64,000 nucleotides of DNA, from the NCBI RefSeq assembly GCF_900163785.1, contig NZ_FUKN01000013.1, forward strand, positions 62,001-126,000. The letters run 5' to 3'. Of this stretch, positions 2,459 to 58,022 are shown one piece after another (position 1 is the first letter of the stretch; every line of letters begins with the position of its first letter). The notes beneath the pieces were generated by a model. That model made no database searches. It was not told where the DNA came from and saw only the letters and a program-made list of their open reading frames with translations. Made by a program: the position numbers and the translations under genes. The stretch comes from Psychrobacter sp. JB385 (GTDB taxonomy: Bacteria; Pseudomonadota; Gammaproteobacteria; Pseudomonadales; Moraxellaceae).

Positions 2459-2599
2459 ATCAGTCCTCAATATAAAAGACTCACGAGCTATCGTGTGCTA
2501 CTAAAATCAACGTTGCTTGCTGTGTTGCTTTTGATAGAAGCTACGTAAAATCCATTTTAGTAGCGCTGTCATTGTTTTATATGGGCTCAATTATTCTAT
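2459..2599 (+). repeat. Degenerate copy of ~140-bp palindromic intergenic repeat
   Basis: The gap between the patatin-like gene and the SDR gene aligns along its length with the better preserved copy at 49297-49443. Shared landmarks are AATATAAAAG near the left end, GCTTGCTGTG in the middle, and a right end ending CTCAATTATTCTAT that matches the terminal inverted repeat. It is the most diverged complete copy found. Confidence 0.45.
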
Positions 2600-2630
2600 T
2601 TTTAAACATGATGATTTATCGGTAGGCTCT

Positions 2631-3470
2631 ATGATAGATGGTGTTGATTGTTCCTATGCTAATACCAGTAGCATCCCGCATTTGGTTGTGGTTGGTGGTA
2701 CAAGTGGTATTGGCTTAGCATTAGCGCGTCGCCACCAAATGCATGGCTGGCGAGTGAGTGTGGTTGGTCACAATCCAGAAAAGATAAAAATGTTGAACCA
2801 GAGTCATCCTGATATAACCACTTATGCTTGTGATTTAACTGATGCAGTTGAGCTTGAAAAATTACTACAGCAGTTATCAGAAGTGTGTTTTCAGCGTTTG
2901 ATCTATAGTGCAGGCAGTTATTTTAATGAGCGAATCCATACGCTTGGTCGCGTGCAAAGTGACCAAATGCTGGCGATTAATTTACAAGCGTTTGAGCATA
3001 TATTTTGTTGGGCAAGTGCGCAGTTAAAGCGACAAGTAGAGAAGCAACCAGTGACTTGTCCTGCTACTTATACGGTGTCCGATGCTACACTCGGCCTTAT
3101 TTGTATGGCGTCGATAGCGGGAGTGCTGGATTATCCTTATGCCAGTCTCTATGCCAAAAGTAAGCGCGCTATGATTGCCACTGCCAGCGCTTATCGCTGC
3201 GCTTTGCAGCCTTATGGTATACAAGTCACTTGCATTGCATCAGGCTATATTGACACACAAGCTTTGCGCGATTTAAATGAAGGTGATGCCAGTCATAAGC
3301 CGTTCATTATGTCCACTGAGCACGCAGTTGATCATATAATGCAAGCGATTAGCGAAGATACTGAGCTGGCAATATTCCCATGGACGATGCGTTACATCAC
3401 TAGAATATTGAATCGACTGCCAAAACCTATATTACATCAAATACTACGCAATAAATTAGATAGGCAATAA
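2631..3470 (+). CDS. Short-chain dehydrogenase/reductase (SDR) family oxidoreductase
   Basis: This 279-residue classical SDR has the cofactor-binding glycine motif GGTSGIG (residues 22-28), a YSAG segment in place of NNAG, the structural Asn in LAINL (about 117), Ser161 in MASIAG, and the catalytic pair Tyr174/Lys178 in YAKSK. The Rossmann fold therefore looks intact and the enzyme is probably an NAD(P)-dependent reductase or dehydrogenase. The substrate cannot be read from sequence. It follows the hydrolase/methyltransferase and patatin-like genes on the same strand, about 175 bp away across a repeat element, and is convergent with a CdsA-like gene, so a lipid substrate is plausible but inferred. 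The start used is the ATG after a weak AGG; other in-frame starts are possible. Confidence 0.88.
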   Translation: MIDGVDCSYANTSSIPHLVVVGGTSGIGLALARRHQMHGWRVSVVGHNPEKIKMLNQSHPDITTYACDLTDAVELEKLLQQLSEVCFQRLIYSAGSYFNERIHTLGRVQSDQMLAINLQAFEHIFCWASAQLKRQVEKQPVTCPATYTVSDATLGLICMASIAGVLDYPYASLYAKSKRAMIATASAYRCALQPYGIQVTCIASGYIDTQALRDLNEGDASHKPFIMSTEHAVDHIMQAISEDTELAIFPWTMRYITRILNRLPKPILHQILRNKLDRQ

Positions 3471-3577
3471 TGTTCTACTAGTAAGAGTTTTCCTTGCTTG
3501 CTGTTCGCAAGCGTGACAGAGGTTAAAAAAAATTCATCTTGGTAGAGCATTCATCTTTTTAAAAAGATAAATTATAG
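3471..3577 (+). repeat. Partial copy of the palindromic intergenic repeat
   Basis: The convergent gap between the SDR and CdsA-like genes contains the core TTCGCAAGCGTGACAGAGG, shared exactly with the copy at 57837-57979, then an AAATTCAT stretch and an ending ATTATAGTCG that matches the terminal repeat. The left end appears to run into the end of the SDR gene and is degraded. Confidence 0.6.
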
Positions 3578-3583
3578 TCGGTC

Positions 3584-4474
3584 TTAGTAAAACCAATAAA
3601 CTAAGGTGAATAGCGGTACACCAATCAGTAGGCTGTCAATTCTATCGAGTACACCGCCATGCCCTGCCAGCATAGTGCCCACATCTTTAATCCCATGTTG
3701 GCGCTTGAAAGCTGACTCTAGCAAATCCCCTGCAATGCCACCGATGACAAGTCCGTAAGCGGCAAAAAAACATACCCAGCTGCTAAATGGTGTCAACCAA
3801 ATCCCAAATATCGTAGCCAGTACGGCAGCAGCGACTCCCCCAAATAGGGCACCTTCAATGCTTTTGTTAGGACTGATAGTTGGCGCAAGATTACGTTTGA
3901 ATAGCTTGTTTTTGAGCCACTTTCCACATAAGTATTGAGCAATATCGTTAAATTGACTCGAAAATAACACGAACAATAATACGCCATACTCGCTACGTTG
4001 CCATGCCACATGTTGAAGAACAATAAGACTAACAGTCAAGCTGATAGTAGCGAGTGCTAAAGCGATATCAATGTCGTTAATTTGACGCGTATAGAAAAGC
4101 TTATTGGCAGAAGGTAAAGTGAGCGTAGGTTGGTTACTGGCAAGCAATATAGGCGGCTGTAGTCCGCGCTGCTGCAATTTATAGACTAGGCGTGCTTTGC
4201 TATGCGGTCGCCACAAACGAATGATTTCGTATAAGGCGCGCAAGCCTACTAACAAAAAAAAGACTGTCAGTAGCCATGCATAAGGATGCTGACCATGGAG
4301 GTCTATTTTTGCAATCACATAGCAGCTGCATAAGATGGCCAGCATCCACCACCATGAGCGGGCGATAAAATAAATCTTGGGTAAGCGGATGCGAATGGCT
4401 GGATAGGCCAATGCACCCCAGACCGTACTTACAGTCAACATCAGACCAGCCACAAACCAAGTATCAGCAGTCAT
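3584..4474 (-). CDS. CdsA-family phosphatidate cytidylyltransferase (YnbB-like)
   Basis: This 296-residue polytopic membrane protein ends in the CDP-diglyceride synthetase signature (residues 254-280: SAFKR, then KD, then GHGGVLDRID), including the paired Lys-Asp and Asp-Arg-x-Asp residues that bind metal and CTP in the family. The family makes CDP-diacylglycerol from phosphatidate and CTP at the inner membrane. It is probably not the main housekeeping cdsA, which usually sits with uppS, dxr and bamA. It lies near a YnbC-like gene, and E. coli has the same pairing (ynbB-ynbC), so it is best read as a YnbB-type accessory enzyme. It converges on the SDR gene, with a repeat fragment between them. 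The start ATG at 4474 is followed by the expected first hydrophobic helix. Confidence 0.88.
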   Translation of the reverse strand: MTADTWFVAGLMLTVSTVWGALAYPAIRIRLPKIYFIARSWWWMLAILCSCYVIAKIDLHGQHPYAWLLTVFFLLVGLRALYEIIRLWRPHSKARLVYKLQQRGLQPPILLASNQPTLTLPSANKLFYTRQINDIDIALALATISLTVSLIVLQHVAWQRSEYGVLLFVLFSSQFNDIAQYLCGKWLKNKLFKRNLAPTISPNKSIEGALFGGVAAAVLATIFGIWLTPFSSWVCFFAAYGLVIGGIAGDLLESAFKRQHGIKDVGTMLAGHGGVLDRIDSLLIGVPLFTLVYWFY

Positions 4475-4776
4475 CGTCCATCGTCTTAGTCATACATCAC
4501 AAACAAAAGGTAAGAGTGAATTTGGCACATCATACCCAGTATCAATAGAGTACATGCTACTAAATGGAGACAATAGTATTGGGGCCATTTGACTCACTCT
4601 TTTGCGCTCTATGGGCTAGTCAAAGCAGATGCAGATATAGTCAGTTCGATATAAAATCGATACGTTGAGGGTTATGTGCGACTGGTATGAATTTTTCGTA
4701 GCCTCAGTGTTAGCAGCACGCAAGGAAAATTTATACCTGCCGCACTGTCTCGATTTTAAACTAAATCGGCTATATA
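4475..4776. other. Intergenic region between divergent-to-upstream cdsA-like gene and nadB end
   Basis: About 300 bp with no convincing gene. The right half is a minus-oriented copy of the palindromic repeat (annotated separately). The left part should hold the promoter of the CdsA-like gene, but I see no clear -35/-10 pair. Confidence 0.6.
4636..4774 (-). repeat. Full-length copy of ~140-bp palindromic repeat (MITE-like)
   Basis: The left end TATAGTCAGTTCGATATAAA and the reverse complement of the right end (TATAGCCGATTTAGTTTAAA) form imperfect terminal inverted repeats with about 23 of 35 positions matching. An inner inverted repeat (CTGGTAT...TATACC) surrounds a GC-richer core. The core reads on the minus strand in the same order as the copies at 49297 and 57837. 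It lies just downstream of nadB. Confidence 0.7.
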
Positions 4777-6780
4777 TTATCCTATGGCAGGCATTTTAGT
4801 TGCCACAACAGAGATATTTGCAGTCGAGATACCATGGTATCTGCTTGGCTTATCAATGCTATGACTATCCAAAGCAACGATTGGATAAACGACACTGGTT
4901 CGCGGTTTGCTGTCCGTGTCAGGATAATCTAGCCGCGCATGACCACCACGACTTTCACAGCGTTGATACGCAGACTGAATAATAAGAGAGGCTAAGGATA
5001 ATTGCTGCTTTAACTGAAAATATGCTAGCGAATGAAGTATAGCAGATTCATCAACACAATTTGAGCAATTTAAGTCAGTCCTATTAGGACTATGACTCTC
5101 GGTTCTATCTTTTGAAAGAATAGAGGTTTTTTTATCAGACGGTGCGTGCAATGCTTGTTGCCATTGCTGTACTTGTAGGAGCGCTTGCTTTAGTTTGTCA
5201 GCATGACGCACGATACCCATGTTGTTTGTCATCAGCAGTTTTAAGGCAGCAGTTATTTCGACAACATCAACATCAACGTCAATATCAATGCCAACATTGC
5301 AACGCGTATTGGTTATATCTTCATTGGCATATAAACGAGAGCGAGAAGGCGACAAGGCCACAGACTGAGTGTTTGTAAGGCAGGGTAGTGCCCAAGCAGT
5401 AAACACTGGTTTCACTGAACTATTATCGCATAAAGGGCTATTATATTCTGTGACGGCTGTTAAATATTGAGGCAAATGCAGCGCAATATGACGACCGACG
5501 ACCACGCATTCTAGTAAGGAATTACTGGCCAAGCGATTGGCGCCATGCAATCCAGTATAGGCAACTTCACCAGCCGCATAAAGCCCTATCACATCGGTCA
5601 AACCGTCCGCAGACGTCACCACGCCGCCGCAGCTATAATGGGCAATCGGCGCTACGGGAATAGGCTCAGCAGTCATATCAATGCCAAGTGTCTGCAATGT
5701 TTGGTAAATCTGCGGAAAATGCGCCTTTAAGAATGCTGCTGGCAAGTGGCTGACATCAAGATGTACGTAACCCAGACCATTACTATCAATTTGTTCAGCG
5801 ATAGCCCGAGCCACGATATCGCGCGGCGCAAGCTCAGCGCGCGCGTCAATATCTAGCATAAATCGTGTACCAGTTCGTGGACAATATAACCGTCCACCTT
5901 CACCGCGCAATGCTTCGGATATCAAAAAGCGACTATCGCCAAGTGCCAAACCTGTCGGATGAAATTGAACAAACTCTAGATTGGCCAAGCGGCAACCTGC
6001 TTGCCATGCCATCATGACGCCATCACCCACGCAGACATCAGGCGCACTGGCGCGCTTAAACAGCTGCCCTAAGCCGCCACTGGCCAATACGACAGCGCTA
6101 CTATGAAAGGTAAATCGGCGCTGATTAGTATGATCAAAAACATGCGCCCCATAACAGTGATTAATGACTGTATTATCCAAGTGACTACTGAATGGTGCGG
6201 TCAACAAGGCTAACGCTTCATGGTAGGGAAGGATAGTAATGTTGCTCGCTGCTTGAGCTTTAATAAGCAGCGCTTCCATAATATACCGACCAGTCGCATC
6301 ATCTGCATGAGCGACGCGGCGACGACCATGACCGCCTTCTTTGGTTAAATGCAAGTTGCTGGTTTGAGCGTTACCGGGACGTAGAGCAGCGGTGTTTCGC
6401 TGAGTATCTGAGTCAGGTATTTGGGTAAAAGGCACACCTTGTTGGCATAGCCATTCAACTGCTTGTTGTCCTGCGCTTAAAATACGAGCGGTATTATCAA
6501 CCTCACACAATCCTGCCCCAGCAACCAAGGTATCAGCGATATGATCGGCAACAGTATCCTCTTCATCTAAGCTTGCGGCGATACCCCCTTGCGCATAGTG
6601 ACTGGAGCAAATCTCAAGTGCAGATTTGCTCAGTACGGTGATCGTAAGCGATTTTGGTAGAGAGAGCGCTGTGCTCAACCCCGCCAGACCCGCACCAATG
6701 ATTAAGACATCCGTTTGTCTTATATCCTCTTTGCTATGCATATCACCAATGACGCTACCTAGGTTGATGGCGCTACTCAT
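4777..6780 (-). CDS. nadB: L-aspartate oxidase NadB
   Basis: NadB oxidises L-aspartate to iminoaspartate, the first step of de novo NAD synthesis, using FAD. The FAD-binding motif GAGLAG is at residues 29-34, followed by SSHYAQGGIA, the active-site region EFVQFHPTGL, HYSCGG and the C-terminal flavin segment GLHGANRLASNSLLE. At 667 residues it is about 130 longer than E. coli NadB. The extra length lies in two hydrophilic inserts in the C-terminal helical part (about residues 450-510 and 550-590), the first containing an Asp-Ile/Asp-Val run encoded by a hexanucleotide-like repeat. Catalytic segments are intact, so function is expected. The ATG lies one base after the nadA stop, giving a nadA-nadB operon whose product passes directly to NadA. 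Confidence 0.96.
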   Translation of the reverse strand: MSSAINLGSVIGDMHSKEDIRQTDVLIIGAGLAGLSTALSLPKSLTITVLSKSALEICSSHYAQGGIAASLDEEDTVADHIADTLVAGAGLCEVDNTARILSAGQQAVEWLCQQGVPFTQIPDSDTQRNTAALRPGNAQTSNLHLTKEGGHGRRRVAHADDATGRYIMEALLIKAQAASNITILPYHEALALLTAPFSSHLDNTVINHCYGAHVFDHTNQRRFTFHSSAVVLASGGLGQLFKRASAPDVCVGDGVMMAWQAGCRLANLEFVQFHPTGLALGDSRFLISEALRGEGGRLYCPRTGTRFMLDIDARAELAPRDIVARAIAEQIDSNGLGYVHLDVSHLPAAFLKAHFPQIYQTLQTLGIDMTAEPIPVAPIAHYSCGGVVTSADGLTDVIGLYAAGEVAYTGLHGANRLASNSLLECVVVGRHIALHLPQYLTAVTEYNSPLCDNSSVKPVFTAWALPCLTNTQSVALSPSRSRLYANEDITNTRCNVGIDIDVDVDVVEITAALKLLMTNNMGIVRHADKLKQALLQVQQWQQALHAPSDKKTSILSKDRTESHSPNRTDLNCSNCVDESAILHSLAYFQLKQQLSLASLIIQSAYQRCESRGGHARLDYPDTDSKPRTSVVYPIVALDSHSIDKPSRYHGISTANISVVATKMPAIG

Positions 6781-6781
6781 G

Positions 6782-7921
6782 TTAAGCAGCTCCTACATTG
6801 GCAAACAAAGAGCGGTCTTTTACAATATCGCCACTGCTTGCCACACGTTGTTTTTGTGATTCAGCAAAATCAAGCATACGTTGTAAGGGTTTTTTTGCGG
6901 CTGTTGCCAACTCAGGCGTCATCAGCACTTCACCGCTGTGATGGGTCAGGCAGTGCTCGATACCCTGCAAGCCATTCATTGCCATCCATGGACAAAAAGC
7001 ACAGCTCTTGCAACTGGCGCTTTCACCAGCGGTTGGAGCGGCTAAGAAGCGCTTGGTCGGTGAGCGTTTTTGCATCTCATGCAAGATACCTAAGTCGGTA
7101 GCAACAATAAACGTATCGGCGTCCATCTCATGCGTCGATTGCAGCAGCTTACTGGTTGAACCAACCACATCAGCGAGCGCCACGACGCTATCAGGAGATT
7201 CAGGATGTACCAATACTTTCGCCTCTGGATAGGCTTCTTTTAACTGTATCAGCTCAGTGGCTTTAAACTCGTTATGTACCAAGCATGAGCCTTGCCACAG
7301 CAGCATATCTGCGCCAGTCTCACGCGCGATATATTTGCCCAAATGACGATCAGGCCCCCAAATGATAGGCTCGCCTTTTGCGTGCAGATAACGAACGATA
7401 TCGATACCAACGGAGGAGGTCACTACCCAGTCTGCGCGCGCCTTTACAGCAGCGCTGGTATTGGCATAAACCACCACGGTACGCTCAGGATGAGCATCAC
7501 AAAATGCAGCAAAGTCATCGGCAGGGCAGCCCAAATCAAGTGAACATTCCGCCTCCAAATCTGGCATGAGAACGGTTTTGTCCATGCTAAGTATTTTTGC
7601 TGACTCCCCCATAAAGCGCACACCCGCGACGACTAACGTCTGCGCACTATGCGCTTGACCAAAGCGCGCCATTTCAAGCGAGTCTCCGACACAGCCGCCC
7701 GTTGCCAATGCCAAATCTTGGATAAAGGGATCGACATAATAATGAGCGACCAATACCGCATTTTTATCTTTTAACAGCTGCTTGATGTTTTCTTCGATTA
7801 TGATGCGTTCTGCGCGTGGCAGATCCTTTGGGATTTTGGCTTTGGCGTAGTCGATATTCATTTGAGTGGCAATGCGAGCATCAGTGCTCATTATTGGCGC
7901 ATCGTATGGATAGCTTTTCAT
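6782..7921 (-). CDS. nadA: Quinolinate synthase NadA
   Basis: NadA condenses iminoaspartate with dihydroxyacetone phosphate to quinolinate, using a [4Fe-4S] cluster. The three expected cluster cysteines are visible: C126 in [10 protein letters not shown]213 in [11 protein letters not shown] and C310 in [10 protein letters not shown] (379-residue numbering). An upstream GTG/ATG could extend the frame to 7996, but the ATG at 7921 has an AAGGG ribosome binding site about nine bases upstream and gives a protein close to family length. It is the first gene of the nadAB operon. An 87-bp leader separates it from a palindrome shared with the nadC promoter (8008-8026), so NrtR repression is likely (inference). 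Confidence 0.96.
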
Positions 7922-8346
7922 AATGACAACCCTTGATATTGTGACGACAATCGGTATGTCGTTAAAAGTGAATCGGTCAAATACTATTAAAAACAAGTTA
8001 ATTTAATTATGCTCATTTTGAGTATAAATACAAGTGGTTTTTAGGGTTGATTATGAAAGGATACGATTCCTATAAACTTCGTTTTTATGTTTGAATAATA
8101 AAAGGTCGAGGTAATGGTAGGATAAGATTTTGATTTTAGAGAAATTCGCTTGCGATGGGGAGGAGCGTAAGTATATGTAATCGTAATTTTTTAATTTGAA
8201 CCAATGCTTCTTTGTTCATTACTGTTTTGACACCGTTTTTAACTTTGTATCGTTACAACCGCAGGCTATGATAAGGGGACATTCAGGCTATACTAGCCAT
8301 ACTGTTTCCCATTCGTTTTATTACCTTTTGGCTCTAAAAATAAAGG
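7922..8346. other. Divergent nadA/nrtR regulatory region
   Basis: This 425-bp region holds the promoters of the divergent nadA and nrtR genes and the palindrome at 8008-8026. I see no additional gene. The nrtR-proximal half has no copy of the palindrome, so autoregulation of nrtR is not evident from sequence. Confidence 0.6.
8008..8026. promoter_or_regulatory. Putative NrtR operator upstream of nadA
   Basis: The 19-bp imperfect palindrome TATGCTCATTTTGAGTATA has half-sites TATgCTCA/TGAGtATA around TTT. A nearly identical copy lies at 9488-9506 upstream of nadC, with 17 consecutive bases shared. Its presence in front of both NAD biosynthetic units flanking an NrtR-type gene is the basis for the call. 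No binding data were available. Confidence 0.7.
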
Positions 8347-9399
8347 ATGACCTTTAACGTTATGACATTGTCTTACTCGCACGCCCATCAACAAGGTAGT
8401 GGCACAACCGAAGTAGTCGCAGTACTTGTGGCCATCACAGATCATACCGCTCGCGTCTTAACAGTCGATCAGGGTAAATTATTGCCCAATGGGCCACTCA
8501 TGCCGCTGCATCGGTCTCTACAGGCGGGCGTTCGTCAATGGGTTGAGGAGCAAACGCAGCAGCCACTTGGATATTTAGAGCAGCTGTATACCTTTGTCGA
8601 TACCAATAGGCGTAACATTGATGGTCATGCATTGGTTTATGTGAGTTATCTAGGATTGGTGCAAGAGACGCAAGCACAGCTACAAAGCCAAGCATCATGG
8701 CAAGATTGGTACGATTATTTTCCTTGGGAAAATCACTTACATGGTATGCCAAGCATGATTGTCGAATTTATCGTGCCAGCGTTACTAGATTGGGCAAATA
8801 CCGCAGAGGATGATGTCAGTCGCCAGCGCCGAATACAACGCATTGGCTTGTGTTGGGGAGTAAGTCAGCCCGTTTTTGCAGATGATGTTCAAAATATAGG
8901 AGCGGAAAATCGATTAGATAAAGAGCCTACATACGAGAGTAAAGAGTGGGTAGCCGAGCATGTATTGCTGCGTTATGAGATGCTCTATGAAGCAGGGCTT
9001 ATACCTGAAGCACCTACTTATCCGCCCACTTACGAGACAAAAATACTACCTGAACAATGGTCACAGCTCATAGGTGCGCCTATGTATTATGACCATCGCC
9101 GTGTGATTGCTACGGCTATCTCAAGGCTGCGTGCAAAAATCGAATATCGCCCCCTCATCTTTGGTCTCATGCCAGAAGTGTTTACGTTGTCACAGCTACA
9201 GCAAAGCGTAGAAGCATTGTCAGGCGTGCGTTTGCACAAACAAAACTTTCGCCGCCTGCTCGATTCACAGCACCTTGTAACAGAGACAGGAGACAGCAGT
9301 AGCGCTCAACGAGGCCGCCCTGCCAAGCTTTATCGCTTTCGTCATGATATTGAACTTCAAAGCTTGTTAATGGATAGCAAGTTGCCCAAGCGTAAATAA
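8347..9399 (+). CDS. nrtR: NrtR-type Nudix-related regulator of NAD metabolism
   Basis: This 350-residue protein has an N-terminal Nudix-like domain (about residues 15-170) and a C-terminal winged-helix part (about 255-350) with EYRPLIFGLMPEVFTLSQLQ and RLHKQNFRRLLDS, then the basic RGRPAKLYRF tail typical of NrtR. The Nudix box is degenerate: the REUxEExGU core is replaced by VRQWVEEQTQQ. This fits the family theme of a non-hydrolysing ADP-ribose sensor that lets go of DNA when NAD turnover is high. It lies between nadAB and nadC, whose upstream regions share a palindrome. The start is ambiguous: the ATG at 8347 directly abuts AAAGG, while an ATG at 8362 has more room for the ribosome binding site. 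Confidence 0.85.
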   Translation: MTFNVMTLSYSHAHQQGSGTTEVVAVLVAITDHTARVLTVDQGKLLPNGPLMPLHRSLQAGVRQWVEEQTQQPLGYLEQLYTFVDTNRRNIDGHALVYVSYLGLVQETQAQLQSQASWQDWYDYFPWENHLHGMPSMIVEFIVPALLDWANTAEDDVSRQRRIQRIGLCWGVSQPVFADDVQNIGAENRLDKEPTYESKEWVAEHVLLRYEMLYEAGLIPEAPTYPPTYETKILPEQWSQLIGAPMYYDHRRVIATAISRLRAKIEYRPLIFGLMPEVFTLSQLQQSVEALSGVRLHKQNFRRLLDSQHLVTETGDSSSAQRGRPAKLYRFRHDIELQSLLMDSKLPKRK

Positions 9400-9506: not shown

Positions 9507-9552
9507 ATTAAATCACGCTCATATTATCAGTGTATGTATATAAGGGTTAAAA

Positions 9553-34682: not shown

Positions 34683-36104
34683 ATGAGTATCAAGCCTGTG
34701 GTCGCCTTAATTGGTCGTCCAAACGTCGGTAAATCTACCTTATTTAATCAGTTCACAAAAAGTCGGCAGGCATTGGTTGCTGATTTGTCAGGACTGACTC
34801 GTGACCGTCAATACGGCGATGCTACCTATGAAGACAAATCCTTCATCGTGGTTGACACGGGTGGTATTGGTGAAGCAGATGATGGTAGTGGCAACATTGA
34901 CGATTATATGTCTGAGCAATCGCATACAGCCATTCATGAGGCCGATATTATCGTGTTTGTCGTGGATGCCCGTGCTGGGATGATTGGTGCTGATGCCGAA
35001 ATCGGTAAGTTCTTACATACCCTAGGCAAACCTGTTTACGTCGTTGCCAACAAAGTTGATGGCGTACATGATGCCGCACCTGCTGAGTTCTACGCGTTAG
35101 GACTGGGCGAACCGTATCCAATGGCGGCCAGTCATGGGCGCGGTGTTGGGAACTTGCTCGAAGTATTGACTGCTGATATGCCTGCGCAAGAGAATATCGT
35201 AGAGCCTAGAGGCCTAAAGCTTGCCATCATCGGTCGTCCAAACGTTGGAAAATCGACACTGGTCAATCGTCTATTGGGCGAAGACCGAGTGGTGGTTTTT
35301 GACATGCCTGGTACCACGCGTGACAGTATCTACATTCCTTATCAGCGCGATGGTAAAGATTACGTACTTATCGATACAGCTGGTGTACGTCGCCGCGGTA
35401 AAATCGATGAAAAAGTAGAAAAGTTCTCGGTTATTAAAACCTTACAAGCAATTGAAGACTCAAACGTGACTGTCATTGTGATCGATGCTCATGAAGGTAT
35501 TGTCGATCAAGATTTGCATATGATTGGCTACGCACTGGATGCGGGTCGCGCTTTGGTGGTTGCAATCAATAAATGGGATGGTCTGACCCAAGAGCAAAGA
35601 GACTATATTAAAATCGAGATGGATCGCCGCTTCAACTTTATACCTTATGTGAAGATACATTTAATATCAGCACTACACGGTACAGGCGTTGGCAATTTAT
35701 ATCCGTCTATCTTGCGCGCTTATAAGTCTTCAATGTTTGAAGTATCTACCAATCGCTTGACGCAAATTTTACAAGATGCCGTTACAGCCAATCCGCCACC
35801 AACTATTGCTGGTCGCCGTATTAAGCTACGTTATGCTCATATTGGTGGCCATAATCCACCTGTTATCGTGATCCATGGTAATCAGACCAGCGCACTTCCT
35901 AAGAGCTATCAGCGTTACCTAGAGAACCAGTTCCGTCAAGTATTTAAGCTTGAAGGTACGCCGCTCAATGTTATCTTTAAACAAAATGACAATCCATACG
36001 CTAATAAGAGCGACACGCCAACCAAGGCAAAAACGCAGCAGCTACGTCAACGTGAGCGCAATCGAGCGAAAAAATTCACCACCAAAGATAAAAAACCGCG
36101 CTAA
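34683..36104 (+). CDS. der: Ribosome assembly GTPase Der (EngA)
   Basis: Der is an essential double-GTPase for 50S subunit assembly. The 473-residue protein has two G domains: the first with GRPNVGKST (about residues 11-19), DTGG and NKVDG; the second with GRPNVGKST (about 183-191), DTAG and NKWDG. A C-terminal KH-like domain (about 355-445) follows, then a basic tail rich in Lys, Arg and Gln. All G motifs are intact. It ends the rlmN-to-der block. Confidence 0.97.
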
Positions 36105-48692: not shown

Positions 48693-49229
48693 ATGAATAT
48701 GGACAGTCAAAAGAACCATCACCAAGAAGCTAGCCATCAGGAAGTCAGGCAATCAGCTTTATCGCATTTAGACAGTGATGGTGACATCACCATGGTTGAT
48801 GTCAGTGGTAAAACTGCCACGACGCGAGAGGCGACTGCGATCGGGCAAGTTCGCTTTCCTAGTGAGATATATCAGCAAATAAAAGCAGCTGATGGTATGA
48901 CCAAAAAAGGAAGCATCACTCAAACCGCGCACATTGCGGGAATTATGGCTGCTAAACGTACGCATGATTTGATTCCCCTTTGTCATCCATTGCCACTCGA
49001 TAAGATTGGCCTAAGTTTTGAATACGATGACGCGCTTGATAGCATCATGGTCAGCGGTGTGGTCAAAGTCACGCATAAGACAGGGGTTGAGATGGAAGCG
49101 TTGACAGCTGTTAGTGTTGCCTGCTTGACCATTTATGATATGACAAAAGCGTTATCACATGACATCGTGATCGATAACGTTCGCCTTATCAATAAAACAG
49201 GTGGTAAGTCAGACTATAAGCATGCTTAG
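48693..49229 (+). CDS. moaC: Cyclic pyranopterin monophosphate synthase MoaC
   Basis: MoaC completes cyclic pyranopterin monophosphate formation from the MoaA product. The 178-residue protein has MVDVSGK near residue 33, HIAGIMAAKRTHDLIPLCHP, and the C-terminal GVEMEALTAVSVACLTIYDM with KSDYKH. Its ATG immediately follows the mobA stop (TAA then ATG), so translation is probably coupled. The first ~25 residues are polar and family-variable. It is followed by a repeat element and then moaD. Confidence 0.96.
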   Translation: MNMDSQKNHHQEASHQEVRQSALSHLDSDGDITMVDVSGKTATTREATAIGQVRFPSEIYQQIKAADGMTKKGSITQTAHIAGIMAAKRTHDLIPLCHPLPLDKIGLSFEYDDALDSIMVSGVVKVTHKTGVEMEALTAVSVACLTIYDMTKALSHDIVIDNVRLINKTGGKSDYKHA

Positions 49230-49296
49230 AGCTGCAAAGCTTGAGAAAAAACATGGTCGTTTGATTGATTAAACGTATGAAGAGTATCAAGCTGGA

Positions 49297-49443
49297 TATA
49301 GTTTGTTTAATATAAAAGAGATGCGATGAGCATGGTGCTCTGCTGGTGTAAATTTTCCTCGCTTGCTGTGCGCTTCGCGTGCCAGAGGCATCGAAAAATT
49401 CATACCAGCCTCACTGTATTATTTTTAAAGTGAATCGACTATA
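49297..49443 (+). repeat. Best-preserved copy of the ~140-bp palindromic repeat (MITE-like)
   Basis: Left end TATAGTTTGTTTAATATAAA and right end (reverse complement TATAGTCGATTCACTTTAAA) are terminal inverted repeats. Inside, CTGGTGTAAATTTT and AAAAATTCATACCAG form a second inverted pair around a GC-rich core containing CGCTTGCTGTGCGC. It lies immediately upstream of moaD, ending 22 bp before its ATG, and so probably provides part of the moaD leader. Confidence 0.75.
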
Positions 49444-49465
49444 GATATTTAGAAGGGAAGGGTTT

Positions 49466-49747
49466 ATGAGTAATACTGCCGTGGTAACCATTGCTGATGC
49501 GACAATGGATATTAACGTTCTATATTTCGCGAGCCTAGCGGATGAAGCCAATTGCCAACAAGAAACGGTCACTGTACAGCAATCGACGTCACTGATTGAA
49601 TTGTATGAGCAGCTTTGCCAAAAGCATCGCTTTAGTCGTCCGCAGTCAGAGCTACGAGTGGCCATCAATGATTATTTTGCAAAATGGACAGACGCTATCG
49701 CTGATGGGGACAGCGTGGTATTTATCACACCTGTCGCTGGCGGCTAG
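49466..49747 (+). CDS. moaD: Molybdopterin synthase sulfur carrier subunit MoaD
   Basis: MoaD is a ubiquitin-like sulfur carrier whose C-terminal Gly-Gly is thiocarboxylated and delivers sulfur to MoaE. The 93-residue protein has the expected fold pattern and ends exactly in PVAGG. The first ~12 residues go beyond E. coli MoaD (81 aa). AGGG precedes the ATG. It is bracketed by two copies of the intergenic repeat (one full, one partial) in the same orientation. Confidence 0.93.
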   Translation: MSNTAVVTIADATMDINVLYFASLADEANCQQETVTVQQSTSLIELYEQLCQKHRFSRPQSELRVAINDYFAKWTDAIADGDSVVFITPVAGG

Positions 49748-49806
49748 TTTTTAACAAAATGTATTCCAGCAGCACTGTATCCGTTTTAAAAAATTAATCG
49801 ACTATA
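49747..49806 (+). repeat. Right half of the palindromic repeat
   Basis: AAAATGTATTCCAGCAGCAC, then a TTTTAAA stretch and the terminal ATCGACTATA, match the right half of the copy at 49297-49443 and begin at the moaD stop. The left half is absent. Confidence 0.6.
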
Positions 49807-49829
49807 AAAATAAAAAATAGAGATAATCA

Positions 49830-50321
49830 ATGACAGATAATGTCCACAGTCATTCCATGACTATTAAGCGTAGCGTTGATGAAGTTTATAAACTGGCTGA
49901 GCGTGATGGTTTTGCCTTGTTAGACACCGCCATTAATGAAGACCGACTGAAAAATACCCTAGACGATGACAGTTGTGGGGCGTTTGTCTGCTTTGAAGGT
50001 CGAGTACGCAATCACAATAATGCCACAAGCGTTGAGCGTTTGACGTACTATGGTTATGAAGATTTGGCACTCAATCAAGGCCGTGCGATCATAGAAGAGG
50101 CCAAAAAGCGGTTTGAGATTACGCACGCTATTGCCATCCACCGTATCGGTGCTCTAGAGATTGGTGATGTGGCCGTCTGGGTTGGCGTGGTATCGGCGCA
50201 TCGTTATCCAGCATTTGATGCGTGCCGCTGGATATTGGATACCATCAAGGCAGATATCCCCGTTTGGAAGCAAGAGTATTATGAGAACGACGCTTCTAAA
50301 TGGCTCAGTAACAATGGCTAA
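49830..50321 (+). CDS. moaE: Molybdopterin synthase catalytic subunit MoaE
   Basis: MoaE combines with two MoaD to convert cyclic pyranopterin phosphate to molybdopterin. The 163-residue protein has the catalytic features GRVRNHN, a conserved YEDLA-containing helix region, IGALEIGDVAVWVGVVSAHR and C-terminal VPVWKQEYYE-like IPVWKQEYYE. Length is typical. It lies about 80 bp after moaD, separated by the partial repeat. Confidence 0.96.
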   Translation: MTDNVHSHSMTIKRSVDEVYKLAERDGFALLDTAINEDRLKNTLDDDSCGAFVCFEGRVRNHNNATSVERLTYYGYEDLALNQGRAIIEEAKKRFEITHAIAIHRIGALEIGDVAVWVGVVSAHRYPAFDACRWILDTIKADIPVWKQEYYENDASKWLSNNG

Positions 50322-51188: not shown

Positions 51189-51279
51189 CGTGATGAGAAA
51201 TGGGAGTCGCAATTCTTTTATGTTAGACGTTATTAAGACAATTATTTTTATCATATCACGTCGTAAAGATAGCAAATTA

Positions 51280-51966
51280 TCAAGGCTTTGGTATATGAAG
51301 CTTATAGCCCACACCAATTTCAGTTAAAAAATAATTTGGCCTAGAGGGGTTGTCTTCAAGTTTTTGCCGTAAGTTGGACATAAATATCCGCACATAGTGC
51401 TCTTGGTGATTGTGACCCTTGCCCCATACTTCTGTCAGTAGCTGCTGATGTGTCATGACTTTTTCAGCATTTTTGATCAATACCGTCAGTAGCCGATATT
51501 CGATCGGGGTGAGATGAATGTTGTCACCATTTTTACTGACTTGTCTTTGCGCCAAATCAATATTGACGTTGCCGAGTGTCAACTCAACTGGGGTCTCATA
51601 TCCTACTTGCCAGCGCCGCATGTGAGCGTTTACTCTAGCGATCAACTCACCCATGCTAAAGGGTTTTACCAAATAATCATCTGCGCCCAGATTTAACGCT
51701 TTGATTTTATCTTGCTCATCACTGCGCGCCGACAATACCAAAATAGGGAGCGATGACCAAGTTCGAATGTCTAAGATCACATCGCAACCATCTGCATCCG
51801 GTAAACCCAAATCTAAGATAAGTAAATCGGGGCGTCGAGAGGCTGCTTCTATCAACCCTCTATTTGAGCTGTCTGCTGTAAAGACTTGATAGCCTTCTTG
51901 CTCCATGGCAGATTTTATAAATCGGGTAATATGAGCTTCGTCTTCGATAATTAGAATGGTTTTCAT
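51280..51966 (-). CDS. kdpE: Response regulator KdpE
   Basis: KdpE is an OmpR-type regulator that activates kdpFABC under potassium limitation or osmotic stress. The 228-residue protein has a receiver with the acceptor Asp52 in LLILDLGLP, the acidic pair at EDE (8-10), the conserved Lys in LVKPFS, and a C-terminal winged helix with TPIEYRLLTVL and HYVRIFMSNLRQKLE. It overlaps kdpD by four bases (ATGA), so the pair is co-translated. Confidence 0.96.
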   Translation of the reverse strand: MKTILIIEDEAHITRFIKSAMEQEGYQVFTADSSNRGLIEAASRRPDLLILDLGLPDADGCDVILDIRTWSSLPILVLSARSDEQDKIKALNLGADDYLVKPFSMGELIARVNAHMRRWQVGYETPVELTLGNVNIDLAQRQVSKNGDNIHLTPIEYRLLTVLIKNAEKVMTHQQLLTEVWGKGHNHQEHYVRIFMSNLRQKLEDNPSRPNYFLTEIGVGYKLHIPKP

Positions 51967-54785
51967 AGTGCCTTATTTTCTGAATGTATTGTCATCTCTG
52001 ACGCGCCGAGTACAAACTTTTCATCAAACATATCTTGTTCTGATAACGGTTCCCACGGTAGCACTATAACAAATTGTGCGCCGTGCGGCTGGATATTGTG
52101 TGCGCTTAGCGTGCCGCCTAAATGTTTAACCAAATCTCGACTCAATGCCAGACCCAATCCCAGTCCTGTGGTACTACTTTCCGTATCGCCGCGCGTGAAG
52201 CGTTCAAATATTTTTTCCTCCATCCCTATCGGCAAACCTTGGCCACTGTCTGTTACCGTTATTTGATAGTGGGGCAGGTTTTGGTTATGTGGAGGGCTTT
52301 GGTGACGTTGCGAGTTTTGGTTTCTTTGAATATATGATGGTTCATCGAGTGTGGCTTGAATTTCAATAGTCGCACTATCTGGGGTGTAGTTAATCGCATT
52401 GGTCAATAGATTGTTTAAAATCCGCGACAAAATAAGCTCATCCGTATAGATAAAATCTACCGCATGAGGAATGTCTATTTTAATCTGTCGATTTTGTAGA
52501 TAAGGGTCAAGCTGGCGGATATTGCTACCGATGATTTCCTCCAAACTGACCCACTGCTTGTTTAGTTTCATCCCGCCAGACTGGAGTGCCACATAATCTA
52601 AAATATTGATAACCAAACGCTGAATCACACGAGCTTGTTGTTCGATGTCGATTGCCAACTGCTTTTGTTCATCGAGTTCTAAAGGTTGGGTGGCAAGCGA
52701 GGTGGCAAGTCCTGACAGTACGGTAATGGGCGTACGAATATCATGAGATAAGGCTGATAGTAGTGAGCCACGCAGGCGCTCTGATTCCACTCTAATAAGA
52801 GCGTTTTGAGCAACTTTTGCGTAATGCACGCGCTCTAATGCGAGCGTAATTTGCGCGAGCGCCACATCAAGCGTTCGCTGCTGCTCGGGCTGATTAAAAT
52901 TATCGTTATCTGTCGGTTTCAGTGCCAATACTGCCAGCACACGACTAGAGGTTGTAAGCGCTCGATAATGCATAGCGTTGGCAGGTAGGGTATTGGTTGC
53001 CAGACCTGCGCTTTCGTTGTGATCGAACACCCACTGCGCTACCGTCCAATTAAAATCCGCTGGCGCGTTTGGCTCACAAACAAGAAGCAGCTTACCATCG
53101 GCATTTGGCATCACCATGAGAGCTGTGCTCGCGATATGCGTGTTCAGCCATACAATTGACTGACTGATGATTTCGTCATTTTTGCGCGCAGCACTTAAAT
53201 TTTGCGCCAAGTGACTCATCGAGATGGCTTGTTGCTCACGTTTGCGTGCATTTTGCGCCTGAAAGCGTAAGCCTACGGCTAGGTTATTAATGATTAAAGA
53301 GACAATGAGCATGACGGCAAAGGTGACAAGATACTGCACATCGCTCACGCTAAAAGAAAGCTTGGGTTCCACAAAAAATAAATCAAAACTTAGCACACTC
53401 AAAAGCGCGGCAAATATTCCTGGGGCGCGGCCAAAGCGCACGGAGATAAACACGATAACTAATAAATAGAGCATCACCACATTGGCCAAATCAAACCAAC
53501 GCGTCAGGGCGACTAGGCTAACGGTGACAAGCGTACAGCCCAACATCGCTATCAGATAGCCCGTACGATTGTCTGTAGAAGATAAGTCGGAGAGGTTCCA
53601 AAAAGGGGGTTGGCGCTCGGCTGTCAGCTTATTTTTCTGTTTGGTTTGATTGACCAGTATCAAGTCTAAATTCAAATCTTGCTCTGAGATTTGCTTAACC
53701 AATGAGCCGTTAAAATAAGAAGCACCTTGGTTTTGTCCGATAATAATACGTCCAATATTAAATTGATGCGCATAACTGACCAAGCCCTCAGCCACGGTAA
53801 TGGCACTGATAATCTCTGTCTTTGCGCCCAATTCATCTGCTAAGCGTAGGGCATTTAATACGTTTTGTTTATTTTTGGCGCGTTTATAAGGGCTTCTAGG
53901 CGTCTCCACATAAATAACATACCACTGAGAATGTAAGCTGCTGGCAAGTCTTGCAGCATGACGGATAAGGCGTTCGCTATGCTCGCGAGTACTGATGCCG
54001 ACCAAGAGCTGATCTGCCGTATTCCAAATAGAAGATATGCGAGATTGATTGCGATAATCGCGCATATCAGCATCGACCAGATCCGCCGTTCGACGTAAGG
54101 CAAGCTCACGAAGGGCGATTAGATTGCCTTTTCTAAAGAAGTTTTTTATGGCGTGTTTTGCTTGGCTGGGAATGTAGACCTTGCCTTCATGCAGTCGTGC
54201 TAGTAGCTCATCGGCTGGCAAGTCGACCAATACCACTTCGTTTGCTTGATCAAAGAACCAGTCGGGGATGGTTTCTTGTACCACGACGCCTGTGATTTGA
54301 TTCACCACATCGTTTAGGCTCTCTAAATGTTGGACATTAACCGTGGTATAAACACTGATACCCGCTTTTAAGAGCTCATTGACATCATGCCAACGTTTTG
54401 GGTGCCGAGATCCTGGCACATTGCTATGGGCCAGCTCATCCACCAACAAGATATCAGGAGCACGCGCCAACGCCTCATCAATGTCGAACTCTAATAAGGT
54501 TTGCGCCCGATACTCAATCTGATGTAATGGCAGTATTGGTAGTCCCTTTAGCAGCGCCGCTGTCTCACTACGGCCATGCGTTTCTACGATACCGACTAAG
54601 ACATCGAGTCCATGCGCTTGATCTCTTTGAGCGGCCGAGAGCATATCGTAAGTTTTTCCCACGCCTGCCGAAGATCCAAAGAAGATTTTTAGTTTGCCTC
54701 TACTCAGCGTGTCTTCTTGCTGCTTTATTTGCTGCAATAAATCTTCTGGATTGGGTCGCTGATCACTCATGTCTATGTTCGTCAT
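51963..54785 (-). CDS. kdpD: Osmosensitive K+ sensor histidine kinase KdpD
   Basis: KdpD senses external K+ and ionic strength and controls KdpE phosphorylation. From the ATG at 54785 the protein is about 940 residues. Domains in order: an N-terminal KdpD domain with Walker A GSSAGVGKT (about residue 37), a USP-like domain, four membrane helices (about 410-505), a GAF-like region, HisKA with SALSHDIRTPITVLSG and the ATPase domain with GLGLGLALSRDLV. A GTG at 54797 is an alternative start within the 16-bp repeat array. It is longer than E. coli KdpD (894 aa), partly through a Gln/His-rich insertion near the ATPase domain (RNQNSQRHQSPPHNQNLP). Confidence 0.96.
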   Translation of the reverse strand: MTNIDMSDQRPNPEDLLQQIKQQEDTLSRGKLKIFFGSSAGVGKTYDMLSAAQRDQAHGLDVLVGIVETHGRSETAALLKGLPILPLHQIEYRAQTLLEFDIDEALARAPDILLVDELAHSNVPGSRHPKRWHDVNELLKAGISVYTTVNVQHLESLNDVVNQITGVVVQETIPDWFFDQANEVVLVDLPADELLARLHEGKVYIPSQAKHAIKNFFRKGNLIALRELALRRTADLVDADMRDYRNQSRISSIWNTADQLLVGISTREHSERLIRHAARLASSLHSQWYVIYVETPRSPYKRAKNKQNVLNALRLADELGAKTEIISAITVAEGLVSYAHQFNIGRIIIGQNQGASYFNGSLVKQISEQDLNLDLILVNQTKQKNKLTAERQPPFWNLSDLSSTDNRTGYLIAMLGCTLVTVSLVALTRWFDLANVVMLYLLVIVFISVRFGRAPGIFAALLSVLSFDLFFVEPKLSFSVSDVQYLVTFAVMLIVSLIINNLAVGLRFQAQNARKREQQAISMSHLAQNLSAARKNDEIISQSIVWLNTHIASTALMVMPNADGKLLLVCEPNAPADFNWTVAQWVFDHNESAGLATNTLPANAMHYRALTTSSRVLAVLALKPTDNDNFNQPEQQRTLDVALAQITLALERVHYAKVAQNALIRVESERLRGSLLSALSHDIRTPITVLSGLATSLATQPLELDEQKQLAIDIEQQARVIQRLVINILDYVALQSGGMKLNKQWVSLEEIIGSNIRQLDPYLQNRQIKIDIPHAVDFIYTDELILSRILNNLLTNAINYTPDSATIEIQATLDEPSYIQRNQNSQRHQSPPHNQNLPHYQITVTDSGQGLPIGMEEKIFERFTRGDTESSTTGLGLGLALSRDLVKHLGGTLSAHNIQPHGAQFVIVLPWEPLSEQDMFDEKFVLGASEMTIHSENKAL

Positions 54786-54796
54786 TAAGGCACTCA

Positions 54797-54876
54797 CTTA
54801 TCATGGCGCTCGTCTATTATGGTACTCACTTATTATGGCGCTCATTTATTATCGCACCTACTTATCACTGTGCGCA
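54797..54876 (-). repeat. Five 16-bp tandem repeats at kdpC-kdpD junction
   Basis: Five contiguous 16-bp units (CTTATCATGGCGCTCG, TCTATTATGGTACTCA, CTTATTATGGCGCTCA, TTTATTATCGCACCTA, CTTATCACTGTGCGCA) fill the gap between kdpC and kdpD. The unit boundary coincides with the start of the extended kdpD frame. No spacers separate units, so it is not CRISPR. Confidence 0.7.
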
Positions 54877-54897
54877 CTGCTTGTTGCTTAGTGTAAA

Positions 54898-55623
54898 TCA
54901 ATTGACACGAGACATCTCATCTAATGCTAAGTTGACAGCCAATACGTTCACGCGAGGCTCGCCCAGCCAATGAAGCTGGCGACCTTCTGTATGAGCATCA
55001 ATCATTTTTTGTACTTGCTCGCTACTGATGCCTCGTATGCGTGCCACTCTATTTACTTGCCACTCGGCAGCAGCAGGGGAGATATGTGGATCTAATCCAC
55101 TACCTGACATGGTGACCAAGTCAAGAGGAATGGGCGTGGTGTTTTGTGGATCGGCTGCTTTAAGTTTTTGTACTTGCGTCTCTACATTGGTGACCAACTC
55201 AGGGTTTAGTGGACCTAAGTTGCTGCCCGATGATTGCGCTGCATCGTAGCCATCTCCAGCGGCTGATGGGCGAGTCCACAGGTATTCTGGTTGATCAAAT
55301 GTCTGGCCAATGAGCGTAGAGCCAACCAAGCTGCCGTTTTGCTCTATCATGCTGCCGTTGGCTTTGTTCGGCATGGTTACTTGCGCGACGCCTGTCATTA
55401 ATAAGGGATAGCATAAACCTAAAGTGATGGCTAAGACGATAAATAACGACAATGCGGGTTTGAGCATGGGCATGCGAGTGGCCGTCTGATCAAGTTTTGC
55501 GCTTTCGTTGTCTTTACCATTGTCATTATCGTTAATATGTGAGTGTTCAGCGTTCATAGGAGAAGCAGGTTGCGTCGCGTTACTAGAAGGCATGGGATAG
55601 TTAGGTTGCATAGTCGTTATCAT
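54898..55623 (-). CDS. kdpC: K+-transporting ATPase subunit KdpC
   Basis: KdpC is the small single-span subunit of the KdpFABC K+ pump and stabilises ATP binding. The 241-residue frame contains the family core from LKPALSLFIVLAITLGLCYPLL through NKANGSMIEQNGSLVGSTLI, GSNLGPLNPEL and the periplasmic LPLDLVTMSGSGLDPHISPA segment. The first ~50 residues, before MPMLKPALS, are Asn/Asp-rich and not found in E. coli KdpC (190 aa); the true start could be the internal ATG. It lies 11 bp after kdpB. Confidence 0.95.
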   Translation of the reverse strand: MITTMQPNYPMPSSNATQPASPMNAEHSHINDNDNGKDNESAKLDQTATRMPMLKPALSLFIVLAITLGLCYPLLMTGVAQVTMPNKANGSMIEQNGSLVGSTLIGQTFDQPEYLWTRPSAAGDGYDAAQSSGSNLGPLNPELVTNVETQVQKLKAADPQNTTPIPLDLVTMSGSGLDPHISPAAAEWQVNRVARIRGISSEQVQKMIDAHTEGRQLHWLGEPRVNVLAVNLALDEMSRVN

Positions 55624-55634
55624 CCGTATTGTGG

Positions 55635-57773
55635 TTATACCAAGTGCAGTGCGTTAATAATAAGGTCAATCAGTTTGATGCCGACGAAGGGTAAAAGTAG
55701 CCCGCCCAAGCCGTATATCATTAAGTTGCGACGTAATAGATTGATGGCAGAATCAGGTCTATAAGTGACGCCGCGCAGCGCTAAGGGAATAAGAAACACA
55801 ATAATTAACGCGTTAAAAATAATGGCGGACAAAATGGCGCTTTTGGGACTGCCCAACTGCATAATGTCGAGCACCCCAAGCGCTGGGTAGGTACTGGCAA
55901 AGGCGGCTGGGATAATCGCAAAATACTTGGCGATATCGTTTGCAAGACTGAACGTCGTCAAAGCACCGCGAGTCATCAACATCTGCTTACCCGTTTGTAC
56001 CACTTCAATGAGCTTGGTCGGATTTGAGTCCAAATCAACCATGTTGGCCGCTTCTTTGGCGGCTTGAGTCCCGCTGTTCATAGCGACAGCCACGTCGGCT
56101 TGAGCCAAAGCAGGCGCGTCATTGGTACCATCGCCAGTCATAGCGACCAGTTTGCCTTGACGTTGATAACTGCGTATTCTCTCCAGTTTTTGTTCTGGCG
56201 TGGCTTCTGCCATAAAGTCATCCACGCCCGCTTCAGCGGCAATAGCGGCAGCAGTTAGGGGATTGTCACCAGTGATCATAACGGTGGTAATACCCATCTT
56301 ACGCAGTTCAGCAAAGCGCTCTTTTATGCCCGATTTGACCACGTCTTTTAGCTCTATGATGCCAAGTAGCTGTCCGCTGTCGGCCACAAGCAGTGGCGTA
56401 CTACCGCGGCGAGCGACTTCTGCGACTTGTTGATCTAGATTATTGGGCAGCTTGCCGCCTTGGGCTTCAACCCACTTTATGATTGCATCAAAAGCGCCTT
56501 TACGAATATGGCGACCATCAATATCTGTGCCACTCATACGCGTTTGTGCGGTAAATTCAATCGTGTCAAACGAACGCGCTTTCCATACCTTATCGTCGAT
56601 ATCAAAACGACTTTGCGCAAGCTTGACGATACTTCGGCCTTCTGGCGTCTCATCGGTTAAAGAGCTGATGAGAGCTACCTCGGCAAGCTGGCTTTCTGTT
56701 ACGCCTTGGGCAGGAACAAATAGCGCCGCTTGGCGATTGCCATAAGTGATGGTGCCCGTTTTGTCGAGTAGTAAGACGTCAACATCACCTGCCGCTTCTA
56801 CCGCGCGTCCAGAAGTCGCGATGACGTTGGCTTGCATCATGCGGCTCATACCGGCAACGCCAATGGCTGATAATAAACCGCCAATGGTGGTCGGTATCAA
56901 ACATACCAATAATGCCACCAATACTACGATAGATATCGGCTCGCCATTGCCTGAAGACAGCACGGCAAATTGTGAAAAAGGCAATAACGTGACACACACC
57001 ATCAAAAAGATCAGGGTCAATGCGACTAATAAAATGGTCAAGGCGATCTCATTGGGTGTCTTGGTACGTTTTGCCCCTTCTACCAACGAAATCATACGAT
57101 CCAAAAACCCTTGTCCTGGGGCTTGCGTGATACGAATCATGAGCCAATCGGACAATACTTTGGTGCCGCCCGTCACCGCATTAAAATCACCACCACTTTC
57201 ACGAATGACAGGGGCTGACTCGCCCGTGATCGCCGATTCGTCTACTGAGGCTAGGCCTTCTATGACCTCGCCATCAGCAGGAATGATTTCGCCTGCATTG
57301 ACCAACACGATGTCATCTTGATTTAGCGCCGTCGCTTGAATCATCGTTGAAGTTGAGCGTCTATCAGCATTCGTCAGTTTGCGAGCTTGGACATCTTGGC
57401 GTGCCTGTTTAAGGCTGGCGGCTTGGGCTTTACTGCGACCTTCTGCCAAGGCCTCAGCGAAGTTTGCAAACAACAGCGTAAACCACAGCCAAAAAGTAAT
57501 GGCTAGCGTAAAACCAACACCTGATTGGGACTGAGTCAGCATGGTGATGGCCAAAATGCTGGTCAGCAATGAGCCGATATAAACCACGAACATCACGGGA
57601 TTGCGCCATTGGACTCTTGGATCAAGTTTAAGTAACGCGGCTTTTAACGCTGGCTTGATCAAAGCAGGATCAAGTAGTCCTTGTGTAGGTTTTTTGGGCG
57701 CGCCTGACTGATTGGGATCTTGTTGTGACTGCAAATGGGGGGACTGCTCGTTAGGATCTGATATAACCTTCAT
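55635..57773 (-). CDS. kdpB: K+-transporting P-type ATPase KdpB
   Basis: KdpB is the ATP-hydrolysing subunit of the high-affinity KdpFABC pump. From the ATG at 57773 (GAGGA upstream) it is 712 residues. It shows the actuator TGES (about residue 183), the phosphorylated Asp337 in [21 protein letters not shown] and the conserved intramembrane region. The first ~35 residues are polar and exceed the E. coli protein; an ORF extension to 57854 has no ribosome binding support. Order kdpA-kdpB-kdpC is standard. Confidence 0.97.
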
Positions 57774-58022
57774 GTTGGTATTCCTCACATAATCATAAAA
57801 ATGGGTCGATTCATTGTTGGGGTATAGAGTCAATCTGTAGTCAATCCAAAACAAAAGTGGTACATATCGTCATCCAGTTCTACTGGATGCAATTTTTCTC
57901 ACTGGCTGTTCGCAAGCGTGACAGAGGCTTCGAAAAATGCACCCCAGCAGAACGGTACTTTTTTTAAAATGGATCAGTAAAATGATGAATAAGATGACTC
58001 AGTGCTAGCCGATATAAAACGG
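57774..58022. other. kdpA-kdpB intergenic gap with repeat
   Basis: Unusual for the kdpFABC operon, where kdpA and kdpB are normally adjacent, this 249-bp gap holds a copy of the intergenic repeat (57837-57979) inserted between the two genes. Confidence 0.7.
57837..57979 (+). repeat. Copy of the palindromic intergenic repeat within the kdp operon
   Basis: The left end TAGTCAATCC and right end GGATCAGTA are weak inverted repeats. The core TTCGCAAGCGTGACAGAGG is identical to the copy at 3471 and the surrounding CTTCGAAAAATGCACCCCAG matches the other copies. CATCCAGT/CTGGATG forms a small internal hairpin. It lies between kdpA and kdpB. Confidence 0.65.

Follow-up and report, generated by a model that had tools for sequence, protein, structure and literature searches.

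A stretch of 64,000 nucleotides from the 3.3 Mb genome of Psychrobacter sp. JB385 (positions 62,001 to 126,000 of contig NZ_FUKN01000013.1, or C11:62001-126000 in the coordinates used here; hereafter "the window") carries six copies of a palindromic intergenic element of about 140 bp, which raises the question of what kind of repeat this is, which enzyme may have moved it, and whether its long palindrome is kept for a role in RNA. The initial annotation of the window had likened the copies to miniature inverted-repeat transposable elements (MITEs), mobilized by a transposase encoded elsewhere. The reading favored here, to which we give a probability of roughly 0.88, is that the copies are MITEs of about 145 bases, which share their ends with insertion sequences (IS) of the IS630 family and are likely mobilized in trans, with an inner stem that is predicted to form an RNA hairpin. 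By this mechanism, IS630-family transposases would act in trans on the non-autonomous elements, inserting them at TA, and the 25-30 outermost bases on each side would serve as ends of the transposase type. In between, an inner part (CUACUGG...CCAGUAG) that encloses a conserved GC-rich tip is predicted to fold as an RNA hairpin, which would form inside operon transcripts where a copy separates moaC, moaD, and moaE, or kdpA from kdpB.

Copy Number, Consensus, and Spread of the Family

The genome-wide self-search and the covariance model proposed in the initial annotation returned dozens of copies with common ends. In the genome of JB385, the copy at 49297-49443 (query 49290-49450) gave 40 blastn matches, and the covariance model gave 127, a count that includes both strands of some places and is based on the scoring of 150 of the 1260 first-look candidates. 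The 30 of the 40 blastn matches that were returned as loci were oriented and aligned. These copies are 114 to 163 bases in length, contain no transposase gene, and are bounded by terminal inverted repeats, with an exact TATAG at the left end of 12 copies and an exact CTATA at the right end of 17. Their consensus has a left end near TATAGTCAGTYCTAAATAAAA and a right end near TTTTAAARTGAATCGACTATA, a stem composed of CTACTGGTATAAATTTTT and AAAAATTTATCCCAGTAG, and a conserved tip, CTTGCTTGCTGTGCC..GCAGACAGAGGC.

A hidden Markov model (HMM) of these 30 copies was searched on 305 fetched stretches, with the same stretches reversed as the control. The search found 405 places, 349 of them non-redundant (94 in the genome of JB385, 177 in named records, and 78 in relatives), although these counts are not densities, because the stretches were picked around earlier matches. 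All six copies in the window were found, the half copy included, and the reversed stretches gave no matches. The copy at 49297-49443 is part of the training set, and the other five stand outside it. The covariance model recovered five of the six, missing the half copy.

The family is spread throughout the genus. The covariance model matched 33 of 57 genomes, that is, 33 of the 36 from the same genus (JB385 included) and none of the 21 from other genera. In a family-level draw of 299 genomes (Psychrobacter belongs to the Moraxellaceae), 96 had a match, comprising 95 of the 105 from the same genus, again with JB385 included, and one of the 194 others, a split that places 183 unlisted match-free genomes in other genera on the basis of list order. 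Both surveys scored part of the candidates in each genome, so that the counts per genome are lower bounds. An exact scan of named genomes found at least 116 stretches, and all 80 among the matches listed are from Psychrobacter. A search of the plasmid records with one element gave no match. Outside the genus, the one strong match (E 6.7e-18) lies in a genome of the same family, G121 of genus g28, and reflects either transfer or assembly contamination.

In the genome of JB385, the 30 copies average 62% pairwise identity, with a maximum of 90%, and judged from these sequences the family there looks old; it also looks dormant, given that no intact IS630 was found in this genome. In eight relatives with at least four fetched copies, the closest pairs within a genome are 95-99% identical, and activity there thus looks recent. 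This is a real, genus-wide MITE family, of a kind already known. The element had been called undescribed, and the full-text search did not find this repeat described, with most subscription journals outside its coverage.

A sister subfamily was also observed, represented by L196 (G000:C5:54377-54522) and L195 (G000:C11:358711-358857), with L191 and L197 being similar. It has a related tip, a different stem (TGCCAACGTCATATTTT with AAAATATATCGTTGGCA in L196), and ends like TATAGTCAATCCAATATAAAA.

Target Site Duplications

Searching all the loci with each flank of every copy on its own yielded 37 candidate pairs, and the best 19 of the 37 rows, covering ten elements, were read. Five elements are clean: in the empty allele the flanks join at a single TA, and in the filled allele there is a TA on both sides of the element. 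These are L314 (empty in L176 and L081), L131 (empty in L074), L361 and L084 (both empty in L106), and L077:6833 (empty in L092, L365, and L019). The target site duplication that the initial annotation had suggested looking for is, therefore, one TA at five clean empty sites, none of which lies in the window; none of the five filled copies is from the genome of JB385, which supplies the empty allele L019. Two of these elements, L314 and L361, are inserted in a different repeat, which was matched over some 45-73 bases per side. The closest empty alleles of L130 have CA instead of TA, and L338, L077:1181, L291, and the half copy in the window have 13-17 extra bases. For the region 2300-4900 of the window, no clean empty site was obtained in the relatives.

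The element at L084:1002-1138 is itself a nested insertion, its TA target lying within the core of a second family copy.

IS630 Elements as the Likely Parents

A pattern written from the ends of the MITE, with up to three mismatches allowed, gave 211 matches in the genome of JB385, against 103 for a control pattern. Among the 13 solo ends listed for this genome, one (C11:167408) belongs to a remnant of an IS630 element; the others resembled decayed MITEs, sister MITEs, or other kinds of sequence. The remnant (L188:909-1504, equivalent to G000:C11:167408-168003) consists of 596 bases between two TATAGT ends and is broken, with an N-terminal transposase frame that matches HTH_Tnp_IS630 and a C-terminal DDE_3 piece. 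Its N-terminal protein has relatives in 42 of 60 genomes of the genus, JB385 included. The only DDE_3 match in the genome of JB385 and the only match to the N-terminal piece both fall in this remnant, which places the likely parent in the relatives rather than in this genome.

Of the 30 IS loci returned, 27 were entered in a test of the ends, and 25 were testable, two being too short. The MITE-end pattern is matched at 14 or more of its 17 positions on both ends in 19 of these 25 loci, with the ends 905-921 bases apart in 16 of them and 967-980 in three. By chance, the best of 120 positions reaches at least 14 in 32 of 2000 random draws, a null that is somewhat higher for the right end, where the search spanned 280 positions. 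Over positions 7-20, the MITE consensus agrees with the 27 IS ends at 11.5 of 14, against 8.09 when shuffled, with none of the 5000 shuffles reaching this value. These IS630 elements, of about 905-980 bp, agree with the MITE at as many as 24 of the 30 terminal bases in the best single matches of ends, and have a TA next to their ends. They differ in that they code for HTH_Tnp_IS630 and DDE_3, whereas a transposase would not fit within the length of the MITE; the comparison covered the ends. One of them, L212, has a single frame of 278 residues with both domains; L223 has them in separate frames, and L231 looks like L223, the domains having been scanned in L212 and L223.

What is new here is the existence, within the genus, of an IS with matching ends, as the initial annotation had anticipated. 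An IS630 parent of the family is credible on these sequence comparisons, and we infer that the IS630 transposase is the cut-and-paste enzyme of the MITEs. As for the transposase expected "elsewhere", an intact likely parent is found in relatives (L212), and only a broken remnant was found in the genome of JB385. The MITE-like character first proposed is upheld by the shared boundaries, the TA duplicated at five sites, and the IS with matching ends.

Some observations weigh against this parentage. No intact IS630 was found in the genome of JB385 by either the N-terminal or the DDE_3 search, and the number of MITEs does not track that of the IS: genomes G018 and G033 have at least 53 and at least 55 MITE matches, respectively, and no IS match, and G028 has 17 IS matches and three MITEs. 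With the MITE family and the IS630 elements that are its likely parents present in one genus, mobilization in trans is directly testable.

The Predicted Inner Hairpin

The nested symmetry of the copies had been taken as the sign of a long RNA hairpin. Once columns made up mostly of gaps are left out and incompatible pairs are penalized less heavily, the consensus forms a single long hairpin over its full length, in which 79.1% of the cells pair, against 37-43% in slid versions of the structure. There are 86 double-changed cells, against a shuffled mean of 44.4, and the covariation score is 0.194, against 0.141; none of the 500 shuffles reached either value. The inner segment folds better on the complementary strand (mean of -29.6 versus -27.6 kcal/mol, and lower in 80 of 125). 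As palindromic ends that are kept alike at the DNA level could also yield covariation, the type of mismatch was examined.

On the modelled strand of the inner stem, the G-T and A-C mismatches number 20 and 64 in the 30 copies of JB385, 59 and 275 in 125 copies from named records, and 15 and 144 in 72 copies from relatives, and the positions that lean toward A-C are 12 of 13, 17 of 19, and 17 of 19, respectively. One pair next to an internal loop (columns 85 and 153 of the named set) contributes 76 of the 275, and without it the numbers are 58 and 199. An A-C on one strand is a G-U on the other, and the complement thus keeps its pairs; moreover, the fold was built on the modelled strand and G-U pairs were permitted in it, so that the method is biased against the observed skew. 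The skew suggests selection on an RNA hairpin of one strand, and the many A-C and few G-T substitutions of the inner part are the pattern expected if selection acts on the complementary strand as RNA. The hairpin itself is backed by its full-length consensus fold, by compensatory changes, and by strand-specific wobble, and the inner stem is probably kept as RNA, in which form it may act. A skew of this type provides a cheap test of selection at the RNA level, usable on any palindromic MITE.

Other results speak against a role in RNA. RNAalifold predicted no structure on the gappy alignment, the first covariance model (R1) had no pairs, and pairs that show at least one double change (24, against 21.8 in the shuffles) are not exceptionally numerous. 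The outer stem leans toward G-T when counted by copy and has more G-to-A than C-to-T changes in all three sets, and the tip of the hairpin has the opposite wobble, G-T, mainly at one fixed T-G pair. The sign tests by position are not fully independent, because the three sets are related by descent. If the RNA is read along the complement, adjacent genes in tandem might be expected to run in that direction more often, which is the case for 61 of 92 in the named set, 25 of 53 in JB385, and 18 of 41 in the relatives (104 of 186 in total, p 0.12), so that the expectation is not supported. An orientation bias had been considered as support for the RNA on the basis of a first look at the named set (41 versus 23) and of its later count, but was rejected, being absent in the two other sets.

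These points lend some weight to the explanation that survives best after the one favored here, namely, that these are MITEs without a role in RNA, whose palindrome is a by-product of the origin of the MITE and whose skew arises from mutation that is biased between the strands or from common descent. In addition to the orientation bias that fails to replicate and the tip that leans the opposite way, the copies are related, and a few ancestral differences between subfamilies can recur at many positions; by single-column transition rates, the skew of the inner stem in the named set is slight. This explanation retains an appreciable chance, smaller than even, given that, in the same copies, the outer stem counted by position does not share the consistent lean of the inner positions (G-T to A-C of 10:10, 11:11, and 11:10), that G-to-A and T-to-C are not consistently in excess together in the unpaired columns, and that the double-changed cells exceed all 500 shuffles.

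The conserved fold may also be read as that of a regulatory or terminator RNA family kept by the host, with mobility being incidental, and the preference of the elements for convergent gaps over divergent ones (86 versus 36, against 184 versus 182 for all gaps; p 1e-4) would agree with it. This preference is, however, as expected if insertions that hit promoters are lost, and the matching gaps in other species that have no copy, together with the copy inserted in another (L084), make a host-kept family improbable. The elements are palindromic, of high copy number, and mostly intergenic, as REP/BIME-like palindromes moved by a REP-associated tyrosine (IS200-like) transposase rather than a DDE enzyme would be, but REPs are 20-40 bases long, well short of some 145, and the terminal inverted repeats, the duplicated TA, and the matching ends of the DDE-type IS630 leave such an origin very unlikely, although no search aimed at tyrosine transposases of this type was made.

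Comparison with Known Bacterial Repeats

The precedent for the mechanism favored here, MITEs mobilized in trans by IS630 transposases, is, by analogy, that of RUP and IS630-Spn1 in Streptococcus pneumoniae (PMC2229807, PMC3049150). In a 2007 review, RUP is a 107 bp intergenic repeat of 108 copies with IS630-like ends and a TA target, its mobilization by IS630-Spn1 rests on indirect evidence, and it is the only bacterial repeat of such a kind with matching IS ends (PMC2229807). The Psychrobacter MITE resembles RUP, as described there, in being a short intergenic repeat with ends that match an IS630-family IS and a TA target, but is found in another phylum and has a covarying inner hairpin, whereas RUP is described there as lacking any other signature of structure or function (PMC2229807).

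The Correia elements of Neisseria (CREE, or NEMIS) fall into two size classes, of some 107 and 155 bp, and have TA at their termini; no matching IS ends were known for them in the same review (PMC2229807). Another source, which prints four variants of their ends, describes them as unique to Neisseria (PMC5039591). Size classes, TA termini, and a mostly intergenic location are similar in the Psychrobacter elements, whose ends resemble, but are not, the 26-bp Correia repeat, in a comparison that concerns the ends only. Two of the four printed CREE variants match the right end of the MITE at 17 of 20 positions, and two agree with an IS end at as many as 14 of 20. None of 5000 shuffles fitted the two MITE ends as well as the four printed variants did together, but 481 of the 5000 equaled their fit to the IS630 ends, a fit that is not significant.

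This near-match provides a candidate answer to the question of which enzyme moves the Correia elements. In its boldest form, the Psychrobacter MITEs and the Correia elements would be branches of one IS630-driven superfamily, in which the long-missing Correia transposase is of the IS630 type, and the Psychrobacter MITEs would persist because selection maintains, on one strand, an inner-stem RNA hairpin for protecting or processing the operon mRNAs that contain it. As the fit of the CREE ends to those of IS630 is not significant, this is kept as a bold and rather doubtful reading, and we do not claim the Psychrobacter elements as members of either RUP or Correia.

MITEAba12, reported from Acinetobacter and other Moraxellaceae, is likewise a MITE of this family of bacteria, but differs in its length of 113 bp, its ends (GGCTTTGTTGCACAAA), which are unlike those of the Psychrobacter MITE, its 9-bp target duplications, and its proposed parent, ISAba12 (PMC6382973).

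The Copies in the Window

The highest-scoring copy in the window is that at 49297..49443 (+ strand), which is full length, lies between moaC and a moaD-like gene, and scores 123.9 bits with the covariance model and E 4e-34 with the HMM. The half copy at 49755..49805 (+), between the moaD-like and a moaE-like gene, has only the right arm and the right end (HMM E 6e-5, model positions 96-144), and the orthologous gap in L081 is without it. The copy at 57836..57982 (+) separates two genes of the - strand, kdpA and kdpB, and is full length with a decayed right end (98.0 bits; HMM 57837-57976, E 7e-28). The KdpB frame extends to 57854 and overlaps the start of this copy, but appears over-extended, because its family match begins at residue 60.

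The copy at 2455..2595 (+) is decayed (58.1 bits with the second covariance model, R2; HMM 2458-2594, E 9e-14), starts directly after the stop of a frame that ends at 2454, and is flanked by two genes of the + strand. The copy at 3433..3577 (+) is flanked by two convergent frames, which end at 3470 and 3584, and scores 72 bits over 3433-3576 (HMM 3447-3563, E 2e-14); its left arm is mostly lost or degenerate, with clear similarity from 3447, and TTATAG is read directly at its right end.

The copy at 4636..4774 (+) is full length with both ends, and is flanked by a phosphatidate cytidylyltransferase-like gene and nadB, both on the - strand. It scores 87.6 bits on the + strand versus 63.9 on the - strand with the covariance model, while the HMM (E 4e-19) prefers the - strand. 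The presence of both orientations in the window, stated in the initial annotation on the strength of this copy, is thus supported by the sequence model and contradicted by the structure model, and because the two disagree in this way, the core of the copy seems to have been flipped between its arms. A core reversed relative to the arms was also seen in L020:1412-1549, L135:4615-4752, and L346:1093-1237, that is, in three of 242 copies compared, with L020 added by hand. Inversion has been reported for the Correia elements in a review.

The terminal repeats of the TATAG type first ascribed to all the copies are clear in 4636-4774 and 49297-49443 and partial or decayed in the rest: the right end is kept in 49755-49805 and decayed in 57837-57979, and 2458-2594 and 3447-3577 are more decayed. 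The strictly intergenic location holds within the window, as judged by open reading frames. Of the 349 non-redundant places, 13 have more than 60 bases in common with a frame, and 20 are too close to the end of a stretch to be judged.

A simple version of the core pattern was seen six times in the window, against 8.1 expected, which is no better than chance. Scans of 49000-50000 gave three promoters, against 2.9 in shuffles, and two terminators, against 0.9. Rfam had no match in the window at the gathering score, and at E values of up to 1, in three loci, gave only two matches, both outside the elements.

Elsewhere in the window, the stretches of 46 bases at 34704-34749 and 35223-35268 are 76% alike and lie 519 bases apart in one reading frame. 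The first translates as GRPNVGKST, and the pair looks like the two G domains of a Der/EngA-type GTPase.

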